A stretch of 64,000 bases of DNA from Saccharothrix carnea (GTDB lineage: Bacteria > Actinomycetota > Actinomycetes > Mycobacteriales > Pseudonocardiaceae), in assembly GCF_003014735.1 (NCBI RefSeq), contig NZ_PYAX01000001.1, forward strand, positions 186,001 to 250,000, written 5' to 3'. Each line of letters opens with the position of its first letter. The stretch's first letter is position 1. A model generated the notes under the pieces. That model saw only the letters and a list, made by a program, of their open reading frames with translations. It was not told where the DNA came from and searched no databases. The translations under genes and the position numbers were made by a program. Positions 24,618-27,126 of this stretch are shown here, in pieces.

Positions 24618-25865
24618 CGCCTCGGCCGCGGCGACGACGGCGGCGGCGATCGCGGCCACGTCGTCGTCCGTGCTGACGAACGGCGGCATGGTGTAGATCA
24701 GGTCGCGGAACGGCCGCAGCCACACGCCGTGGTCGACGGCCGCAGCGGTGGCGGCGGCCATGTCCACCGGGTGGTCCAGCTGCACCACGCCGATCGCGCC
24801 GAGCACCCGCACGTCACCGGGCGCCTGCGCGAGGCCGGACCGCAGCCCGGCCTCGATCCGCCGCACCGACGCCCGCCAGTCCTGCGACAGCAGCAGGTCG
24901 GTGGACGCCAGCGCGACCGCCGAGGCCAGCGGGTTGCCCATGAACGTCGGTCCGTGCGCCAGCACCGGCACCTCGCCGCGCGAGATTCCGTCCGCCACCC
25001 GTGAGGTGCACAGCGTGGCGGCCATCGACAGGTAACCGCCGGTCAGCGCCTTGCCCAGGCACATGATGTCGGGGCTGATCCCGGCGTGGTCGGCGGCGAA
25101 CAGCTCGCCGGTGCGGCCGAAGCCGGTGGCGATCTCGTCGAAGATCAGCAGCACGTCGTTGGCCAGCGTCAGCTCGCGCAGCACGTGCAGGTAGCGGGGG
25201 TCGTGGAAGCGCATCCCGCCCGCGCCCTGCACCACCGGCTCCACGATGACCGCGGCCAGCTCGCCGGCGTGCGCCTCGATCAGGTCCGCCAGCTCCTGGA
25301 CGTACGCGGTCTCCAGGTCGCGCGGCGGCGCGGAAGCGAACACCTGGTCGGGCAGCACGCCACGCCACAGCGCGTGCATCCCGCCCTCCGGGTCGCACAC
25401 CGCCATCGGCTGGAACGTGTCGCCGTGGTAGCCGCCGCGCCAGGTCAGCAGCCGCCGCTTCTCCGGCCGGCCCTGCGAGCGCCAGTACTGCAACGCCATC
25501 TTGATCGAGACCTCGACCGACACCGACCCCGAGTCGCACAGGAACACGTGCTGCAACGGCTCGGGCGTGATCTCCACCAGCCGGGCGGACAGCGCCACCG
25601 CGGGCTCGTGGGTCAGGCCGCCGAACATGACGTGGCTCATCCGGCCGAGCTGGTCGCGCACCGCCGCGTCCAGCACGGGGTGCCGGTAGCCGTGGATCGC
25701 GGCCCACCACGACGACATGCCGTCGACCAGCTCACGCCCGTCGTCCAGCCGGAGCCGGACACCCTCGGCCGAGGAGACGACCAGCGGCTCGTGAGTGCCC
25801 GGCATCGGGCCGTACGGGTGCCAGACGTGTGCCTGGTCCAGCTTCAGCAGCTCATCGCGCTCCAC
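24597..25865 (-). CDS. bioA: Adenosylmethionine-8-amino-7-oxononanoate aminotransferase
   Basis: The 422-residue PLP enzyme makes 7,8-diaminopelargonate using SAM as amino donor. Class III aminotransferase blocks are [63 protein letters not shown] and the PLP-lysine in [26 protein letters not shown] is diagnostic for BioA. The GTG start overlaps the last 14 bp of the P450 gene on the same strand, so the two are one transcript. The usual partner bioF is not nearby. Confidence 0.96.
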
Positions 25866-27081
25866 GAGGGGACAGGCTAACCGGCAGCGCCTCGAGCCCG
25901 CGGATGAGCGTGCCCGCGCGCCACCGCAGCTCCTCCGGGCCGGCGGTCAGGGCCACGTCGAACCGGTCCAGCAGCGTCCCGATCGCGATCTCGCCCTCCA
26001 TCCGGGCCAGCGGCGCGCCCAGGCAGTAGTGGATGCCGTGGCCGAACGCCAGGTGCCCGGCCGCCTGCCGGGTGATGTCGAGCCGGTCCGGTTCCGCGAA
26101 GCGGGCCCCGTCGCGGTTGCCGCCGCTCAGCGACACCACGACCACGCTGTCCTTGGGGATCACCACGTCGCCCAGCTCGACGTCGTCGTTGGTGTAGCGG
26201 AACGTCGCCTGGTTGACCGGGCTCTCGAACCGCAGCACCTCCTCCACCGCACCGGGCAGCAACGTCCGGTCCGCGCGCAGCTTCGCCAGCTGCTCCGGGT
26301 TGCGCACCAGGTGGTAGACGCCGTTGCCGATCAGGTTGACCGTGGTCTCGTGCCCGGCGACGAGGAGCAGGAACGCCATGGCGATCAGCTCCAGCTGGTC
26401 GAGCCGGTCGCCCTCCTCGTCGGCCTGCACCAGCGCCGAGAAGAAGTCGTCACCGGGCGCGTTCCGCTTGTGCTCGACCAACTTCGCCAGGTAGCCCGCC
26501 ATCTGGGCACCCGCCTGCTGGAGCTGCTCCGGTTCGCCGTTGCCGGCGACCAGGACGTTGGACCACACGCGGAACTCGTCGCGCTCGTCCAACGGCACGT
26601 CGAGCATCTCGCAGATCACCGTGATGGGCAGCGGGAACGCCAGCGCGTCCACCAGGTCGACCTCGCCCTTGGCCGCCGCCTCGTCCAGCAGCCCGTCGGT
26701 GATCTCCTGGATGCGCGGCCGCAGCTGCTCGACCCGCCGGGCGGTGAACGCCTTGGTGACGAGCTTGCGCAGCCGGGTGTGGTGCGGCGGGTCCATGTTC
26801 AGCATGTGCTGCACCAGGGACTCGTCGAACTTGGGCGCGTCGCCTCCTTCGACCCGGTTGCGCTCCATGACTTCCGGGAAGCGCTCGAAGTGCTTGCTGA
26901 ACCGCGCGTCGGCCAGCGCCACCCTGGCCTCCTCGTACCGGGTGACGAGCCACGCCTTCGTGCCGCGCGGCAGCACGATCTCCGTCGCCGCCGCCTGCTC
27001 GCGCAGCCGGGCGTGGTAGGCGTGCGGATCGGCGAAGTACTCCTCGCCGAGCACGTCGAGACCGGCGATCTTCTCCCCCAC
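25852..27081 (-). CDS. Cytochrome P450 (CYP107-like) upstream of bioA; BioI-like role possible
   Basis: The 409-residue haem monooxygenase has all core motifs: I-helix AGHETT, K-helix ExxR in EEVLRFE, and the haem-ligand loop [15 protein letters not shown] with Cys353. It is soluble and lacks a fused reductase. The GTG at 27081 follows GAGGGGG; a GTG at 27117 would lie inside the upstream dyad. Its 3' end overlaps bioA by 14 bp, and the promoter contains a BioQ-like box. Bacillus BioI, also CYP107-type, makes pimeloyl-ACP for biotin. A similar role is an inference from context; a secondary-metabolic hydroxylase remains possible. Confidence 0.85.
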
Positions 27082-27093
27082 AGGGACCCCCTC

Positions 27094-27126
27094 TTCGTTT
27101 GAGTTAACCCTGTTCACTCAAACGAA
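27094..27126. promoter_or_regulatory. 33-bp dyad with BioQ-like box in the P450-bioA promoter
   Basis: TTCGTTTGAGT (27094-27104) and ACTCAAACGAA (27116-27126) are perfect 11-bp arms around an 11-bp centre that is itself mostly symmetric (AAC...GTT). On the minus strand the centre reads TGAAC-AGG-GTTAA (27116-27104), which matches the BioQ consensus TGAAC-N3-GTTAC at 9 of 10 fixed positions. BioQ is the TetR-family repressor of biotin genes in corynebacteria and mycobacteria. No bioQ gene is in the window. Confidence 0.6.

Follow-up and report, generated by a model that had tools for sequence, protein, structure and literature searches.

In Bacillus subtilis, the cytochrome P450 BioI (P450BioI) is encoded with the biotin genes and is reportedly dispensable for biotin (PMC11089781). 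Deletion of another P450 gene, mkpG from Streptomyces, abolished production of alpha-methyl-7-keto-8-aminopelargonic acid (alpha-methyl-KAPA) in a heterologous host (PMC13336041). The mycobacterial pimelate route described recently consists of Tam/BioC and three BioH enzymes (PMC9302846), and a published site of the TetR-type regulator BioQ is TGAAC-N3-GTTCA (PMC3398298). Among open-licence papers, we recognised no description of a P450 in a primary biotin operon of an actinomycete. Here, we analyse a 64-kb stretch of Saccharothrix carnea DNA (contig NZ_PYAX01000001.1; "the window"), one part of an 8.9-Mb genome in 40 contigs (C1, C5, and C10 below are such contigs), in which a P450 gene that we take to be of the CYP107 type, P450a, overlaps the biotin gene bioA downstream of a conserved operator. 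A preliminary description of this locus had placed the pair in the biotin regulon and had proposed that P450a is a BioI-type pimelate enzyme. We found that the pair is conserved but that the operator goes with P450a and not with the biotin genes, and that a second P450, beside bioF, is the better candidate for a pimelate enzyme.

P450a (positions 25852 to 27081, minus strand; 409 amino acids with a GTG start; PF00067) ends inside bioA, the gene for 7,8-diaminopelargonic acid (DAPA) aminotransferase (24597 to 25865, minus strand; TIGR00508, 542 bits versus a cut-off of 405). The P450a stop codon lies at 25852 to 25854 and the bioA GTG at 25863 to 25865, which gives a 14-nucleotide (nt) overlap on the minus strand, exactly as first described. 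We chose the P450a GTG at 27079 to 27081, 5 nt downstream of AAGAGGGGG. Residues 1 to 409 from this start are matched in loci L006 and L007, although the query began there and the protein could be longer; an alternative start of a longer open reading frame (ORF), at 27117, falls within the operator. P450a is 91% identical to a P450 of Saccharothrix sp. NRRL B-16348. In a family sample of 100 Pseudonocardiaceae genomes, bioA was detected in 93 (E value, 1e-130) and P450a-like genes in 70 (E value, 1e-105; 102 rows). We compared 96 bioA loci with 74 of these 102 rows, accepting P450a-like genes up to 9 kb upstream, and found one upstream of bioA in 40 loci, on the same strand in all; the same 40 were found on the DNA. 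In 27 of the 40, no more than 125 bp separate the two genes; in the other 13, the distance is 246 to 4,830 bp. The 96 loci comprise 66 of type 1 (bioF elsewhere, the window included), 28 of type 2 (bioF beside bioA), and 2 second copies without biotin neighbours. P450a is present in 40 of the 66 type-1 loci and in none of the 28 type-2 loci, two of which have a downstream, unrelated-looking P450 (28 to 30% identity). By its overlap with bioA and by this linkage, P450a is a gene within a biotin operon. We concluded that the P450a-bioA pair is real and conserved, and the two genes are probably cotranscribed.

The predicted operator is a 33-bp dyad, TTCGTTTGAGTGAACAGGGTTAACTCAAACGAA (27094 to 27126, minus strand), centred on 27110, 29 bp before the P450a start, with 14 of 16 position pairs complementary and the core GTGAACAGGGTTAAC at 27103 to 27117. 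It ties for second best among the 33- to 34-bp dyads of the window. Within the window, a single copy of the core TGAACNNNGTTMA stands against 0.04 expected, and a 25-mer version of the dyad, with up to 3 mismatches allowed, has a single site in the whole genome. The site is one base from the published TGAAC-N3-GTTCA and also one base from TGAAC-N3-GTTAC, so both the dyad and its BioQ-like geometry, with one mismatch, were borne out. Related boxes precede P450a in Saccharothrix, Lentzea, Actinokineospora, and Kutzneria. Since these stand before the same gene across genera, some of them altered at both members of a pair so that the symmetry is kept (e.g., GTAAACAGGGTTTAC in L007), the dyad is not a product of chance.

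We searched for boxes with the pattern GTDAAC-N3-GTTHAC within 250 bp before gene starts. Since P450a promoters served to write the pattern, its absence elsewhere is the informative part. Relatives of P450a were sought in one genome per species; of at least 574 matches, the best 80 were kept, and the 29 of these 80 loci with a same-strand bioD or bioA were used further. Genes were counted as P450a-like at 250 bits or more with the full upstream region; the loci are partly redundant, with some species fetched twice, and contain 26 distinct site sequences. A box precedes 30 of 150 P450a-like genes; where biotin genes share the locus, the count is 28 of 76, and elsewhere it is 2 of 74. The latter two (L229 and L244) both lie beside a dnaE-type gene with no bioA in the locus. 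No box was found before any of 126 bioA, 87 bioB, 121 bioD, or 70 bioF genes, nor before 12 copies of the bioF-linked P450 gene (P450b; see below), 54 of dnaE, or 99 of the membrane-protein gene that marks biotin loci. The best match before the bioF gene of S. carnea itself has 4 mismatches, and those before bioA, bioD, and bioB in six same-genus loci have 2 to 4. The fetched loci span 4.02 Mb and contain 31 box matches, each of them 4 to 78 bp ahead of the start of a P450a gene (the window site is counted twice); the reversed control has none. Because no box precedes a bioA start, bioA can receive the box only via P450a. The biotin-regulon part of the initial claim thus fails a direct test: the box is missing from bioA, bioB, bioD, and bioF, and it stays with P450a where the locus has no bioA.

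Whole-genome searches pointed to another place for the box. The 100 family genomes contain 179 forward matches versus 17 for the control. We fetched 30 of these whole-genome loci: 17 adjoin one kind of TetR gene, 4 are before P450a, and 9 are singles. Among these 30, the commonest place other than P450a is thus the promoter region of a TetR-exporter pair, which likewise does not support a biotin regulon. In 14 of the 17, an MMPL gene is called across the site in divergent orientation, and 9 of the 17 carry two or three sites. In S. carnea, the TetR gene (P0004, 245 amino acids) is divergent from the exporter gene (P0005; L279:5214-8199, contig C5), next to a gene that we take to be leuS, and two copies of the core lie between them (C5:271389-271443). 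The same core is therefore found at this pair and at P450a. The exporter matches nine MmpL3 sequences or structures at 503 to 533 bits, but its score of 638 falls short of the 1400 set by the MmpL3 equivalog model. The best solved match of P0004 is Rv1816 (70 bits, residues 7 to 236); chains 5yej and 5yek, which we assume to be BioQ, having found no paper that confirms this, reach only 27.5 bits. In open-licence papers, we recognised no description of such a TetR-exporter pair in Pseudonocardiaceae. The genome has a fourth site (L280:5391, contig C10), about 60 bp before a major facilitator superfamily (MFS)-type transporter gene; it may be a chance match, because the control also has one match in this genome.

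The protein and its distribution fit the BioI-type role poorly. P450a has the P450 fold and motifs: it reads AGHETT in the I-helix and EEVLR in the K-helix and has the heme loop. Its nearest solved chains are TamI, PikC, and a vitamin D hydroxylase, which presumably act on natural products. BioI (3ejb) is outranked by at least 60 distinct solved P450 sequences, so that P450a is not particularly close to it. Moreover, P450a is absent from 26 of the 66 type-1 loci, which retain bioA. Two of the three other same-genus genomes, both of type 1 (G021 and G059), have no P450a match and no P450 between dnaE and bioA. On a quick tree of bioA and bioB (66 rows), the presence of P450a at bioA requires 12 parsimony changes, the direction of which is not fixed. 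P450a is also kept in four genomes, each 99 to 100% complete, with an incomplete pathway. Two (G035 and G069) keep P450a and bioB, with BioA at 254 and 306 bits (cut-off, 405) and no bioF at an E value of 1e-90; the other two (G029 and G053) lack bioB at 1e-20, with BioA at 220 and 305 bits. P450a is therefore not confined to genomes with a pimelate-using biotin pathway. Finally, ratios of nonsynonymous to synonymous substitution rates (dN/dS) against three Saccharothrix-type relatives are 0.32 to 0.54 for P450a, versus 0.11 to 0.15 for bioA, 0.06 to 0.12 for bioB, and 0.17 to 0.22 for bioD; P450a evolves faster than its biotin neighbours.

We also considered P450a genes away from bioA, fetching 20 of 59 such rows. 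Six have a dnaE-type gene on one side and the membrane-protein marker on the other, with no bioA, three are beside bioD and the marker, one is beside a divergent dnaE-type gene, and 10 have none of these neighbours. The idea that the bioA-linked P450s form one clean clade was rejected: on a tree of 66 linked and 56 unlinked rows (FastTree, identical rows dropped), linkage takes 13 changes versus 40.5 when shuffled, with unlinked rows inside.

A different P450 adjoins bioF. P450b (L001:154-1362, minus strand) is head-to-head with bioF (L001:1399-2577, plus strand), with 36 bp between the chosen starts (genome position C1:346346-348763). The preliminary description had suggested looking for bioF in the rest of the genome. 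A candidate (C1:347588-348763) is present on the same contig, outside the biotin cluster and about 135 kb from it; it scores 393 bits, short of the curated 426, a threshold reached in only 5 of 14 control genomes. P450b was found in 22 of the 100 family genomes (E value, 1e-70) and by coordinates adjoins bioF divergently in all 22; the DNA of 40 bioF loci plus the S. carnea locus confirmed 12 of these arrangements, the other 10 genomes not being among the 40. In a class-wide sample, P450b was found in 8 of 394 genomes. Of the 7 others, one has the order bioB-bsaP-P450b (L298) and two have bioF-bioD-P450b (L301 and L302), while in 4 the flanks fetched, about 1.5 kb, contain no biotin gene. We rejected the possibility that P450b is a general P450 paralogue, since all 22 family members adjoin bioF and 3 of 7 in other families are beside biotin genes.

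P450a and P450b are 32% identical. Among solved chains matched by P450b, 3ejb (BioI) ranks 45th at 119 bits. A Streptomyces lydicus locus (L228, from the genome of L051) encodes an acyl carrier protein (ACP), a ketosynthase, a bioF-like protein, a P450, and BioB, BioD, and BioA; mkp/mdb clusters are described with this gene content (PMC13336041). Its P450 (L228:5932-7212) is 53.8% identical to P450b and 27.6% identical to P450a. We assigned it as MkpG from gene content plus the equivalence of strains ISP-5461 and DSM 40461, which we assume. Neighbourhood and genetically tested relative thus agree in suggesting that the BioI role, weakened for P450a, moves to P450b as the better candidate. In P450-less genomes, the genes beside bioF include recurrent neighbours, presumably GNAT-like, trypsin-like, helicase, and PIG-L-like, none of which is suggestive of a missing pimelate gene.

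The explanation that we favour, with slightly more doubt than belief when it is taken as a whole, is that P450a and bioA would form one transcription unit whose promoter carries a TetR-type operator, perhaps one that responds to lipids, which would belong to P450a and would not be a biotin-regulon box. The best candidate for the protein that reads this operator would be the conserved TetR P0004, divergent from the MmpL3-like lipid exporter on C5, with the core twice in its own promoter and Rv1816 as its nearest solved relative. PMC6463170 describes binding of fatty acids and of mmpL regions by Rv1816 and Rv3249c. Because the other sites of the operator lie at the TetR-MmpL3-like exporter pair, P450a may have a lipid role. 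It would most likely be a lipid- or fatty-acyl-oxidising enzyme whose expression carries bioA along, and not a dedicated source of pimelate. A pimeloyl-forming P450, if there is one, would more likely be P450b.

Several observations weigh against this explanation. Forty-eight of the 76 P450a-like genes on biotin loci, those of Amycolatopsis included, lack a box of this form, and the tight spacing in 27 of the 40 linked loci argues for some shared purpose of P450a and bioA. The spacer and flanks at P450a are not those at the TetR gene: the spacer is NGG in 17 of the 26 distinct P450a sites versus none of 30 distinct TetR-exporter sites, and the arms of P450a sites are somewhat more extended and symmetrical, a weak difference (Mann-Whitney P value, 0.04). 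Hence, another TetR-type regulator, one of the BioQ type included, is quite possible. The core is shared, and from it we infer only that P450a may belong to the regulon of this TetR. In addition, mmpL3 expression was unchanged in an Rv3249c mutant (PMC9430723). Lastly, P450a is at bioA in 21 of the 22 P450b genomes, which could mean joint function.

The reading first put forward, in which P450a resembles BioI, cleaves acyl-ACP to pimeloyl-ACP, and is controlled together with bioA by a BioQ-type repressor, now seems unlikely. P450a overlaps bioA and is linked to it in 40 of 96 loci, its box is one base from the published site, and it is a CYP107-type P450 with the expected motifs; these parts of the claim stand. 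As this reading would also have it, no BioC passed the cut-off in the genome, where a search returned 40 weak methyltransferase matches, the best at 66 bits versus 185. This absence says little, because only 1 of 14 control genomes passed the cut-off and a mycobacterial Tam/BioC would probably have been missed too. What speaks against a BioI-type P450a is that no such box precedes the other biotin genes, that the box persists in two loci that have no bioA (L229 and L244), that the gene is lacking in 26 of 66 type-1 loci that keep bioA (two same-genus genomes among them) and kept where bioA and bioF, or bioA and bioB, are missing, that it evolves faster, that at least 60 solved sequences are closer than BioI, and that P450b is closer to the tested relative. 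A passenger gene, that is, a specialised-metabolism CYP107 lodged between dnaE and the biotin genes with no role in biotin or lipids, would account for the 12 changes of presence, the dN/dS above that of bioA, the 6 of 20 fetched loci that have P450a between a dnaE-type gene and the marker without bioA, and the natural-product roles that we assume for the nearest solved relatives. We regard it as rather improbable, however, given that purifying selection is still clear at a dN/dS of 0.32 to 0.54, that the operator is conserved across several genera, and that the spacing to bioA is tight in 27 of 40 loci.

We give little credence to a split BioI, in which P450a at bioA and P450b at bioF would carry out successive acyl-ACP oxidations on the way to pimelate. 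Both P450s do adjoin biotin genes in S. carnea, and P450a is at bioA in 21 of 22 P450b genomes versus 19 of 44 other type-1 genomes (Fisher P value, 3e-5, uncorrected for kinship). Once kinship is considered by tests of independent pairs, this association is unsupported: about 2 of 6 pairs agree, and a sign test on them cannot reach significance. Furthermore, 19 genomes have P450a alone, a 19.9-kb stretch around the S. lydicus mkp locus contains a single P450, and no box is common to bioF or P450b. Returning to the reading that we favour, we extend it to a tentative proposal that may well fail: many Pseudonocardiaceae, and scattered actinomycetes elsewhere, would make the pimelate chain of ordinary biotin by means of an MkpG-related P450b, encoded head-to-head with bioF or in bioF-bioD or bioB-bsaP operons, with P450a as a lipid-responsive partner.

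The remaining genes of the cluster are on the minus strand in the order dnaE, P450a, bioA, bioD, bioB, a bsaP-like gene, and a membrane-protein gene. The flanking ORF at 27170 to 30703 (minus strand) is one that we take to be dnaE, and its place is supported by synteny. Dethiobiotin synthetase is encoded by bioD at 22958 to 23680 (minus strand; TIGR00347, 105 bits versus a cut-off of 83), and a plus-strand ORF (23916 to 24617) sits between bioA and bioD. Biotin synthase is encoded by bioB at 21840 to 22856 (minus strand; TIGR00433, 352 bits versus a cut-off of 225, scanned from 22832), the ORF start of which is not settled. The membrane-protein gene that serves as the biotin-locus marker (20998 to 21612, minus strand, start not settled) is an ORF found beside bioB in most fetched biotin loci; it has no NCBIfam match, and we assume it to be DUF2567/Rv1591-like. 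Between the two, directly after bioB, lies a gene for a small cysteine-rich protein of about 69 amino acids (21634 to 21843, minus strand), the GTG of which overlaps the bioB stop by 4 nt. We call it bsaP-like because its position and make-up are those given in PMC11099021.

Some loci differ in their neighbours. Four (L020, L025, L063, and L241) keep P450a and bioD with no bioA or bioB in the cluster. The dnaE gene is 78 to 98% identical to that of the window in many type-1 loci and 57 to 62% identical in some others, and a dnaE-type neighbour with 56 to 61% identity lies upstream of P450a in L098, L099, L103, L105, L106, L121, and fetched non-bioA loci. Two types of dnaE may therefore occupy the place 5′ of P450a, and these neighbours need not all represent one dnaE. 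Amycolatopsis-type loci (L012, L015, L018, L019, L026, and others) have one or two copies of a large gene, presumably a SulP-type anion transporter, between bioA and bioD.

For the pimelate chain of actinomycete biotin, our results shift the proposal of a P450 source from P450a to the bioF-linked P450b, found in 22 of 100 family genomes; a methylated KAPA is already known to require an enzyme related to P450b. If the proposal is true, primary metabolism in actinomycetes would include a P450 route to pimelate. Our results also suggest that bioA may be transcribed from a promoter carrying an operator other than a biotin box; biotin supply could then be tied to a signal other than biotin, perhaps lipid state.

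P450BioI (CYP107H1) is like P450a in being a P450 encoded with biotin genes, and we assume that both are rightly called CYP107. It differs in phylum, gene order, and operator, and it lies outside the 60 nearest solved sequences of P450a. The BioQ operator and regulon of Corynebacterium and Mycobacterium are alike in the TGAAC-N3-GTTCA geometry and in the TetR type of regulator. They are unlike the system described here, in which no box precedes bioA, bioB, bioD, or bioF and the box recurs at a TetR whose gene neighbours that of an MmpL3-like exporter and whose closest solved match is Rv1816. Rv1816 and Rv3249c of Mycobacterium tuberculosis are also of the TetR type, bind fatty acids, and have mmpL3 among their reported targets (PMC6463170 and PMC9430723); the match of P0004 to Rv1816 is only 70 bits. 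MkpG of the Streptomyces mkp/mdb clusters is, like P450b, an actinomycete P450 beside a bioF-like gene, there together with bioADB, and is needed for alpha-methyl-KAPA (PMC13336041). It serves an antimetabolite and has ACP and ketosynthase genes of its own; it is 54% identical to P450b but only 28% identical to P450a.

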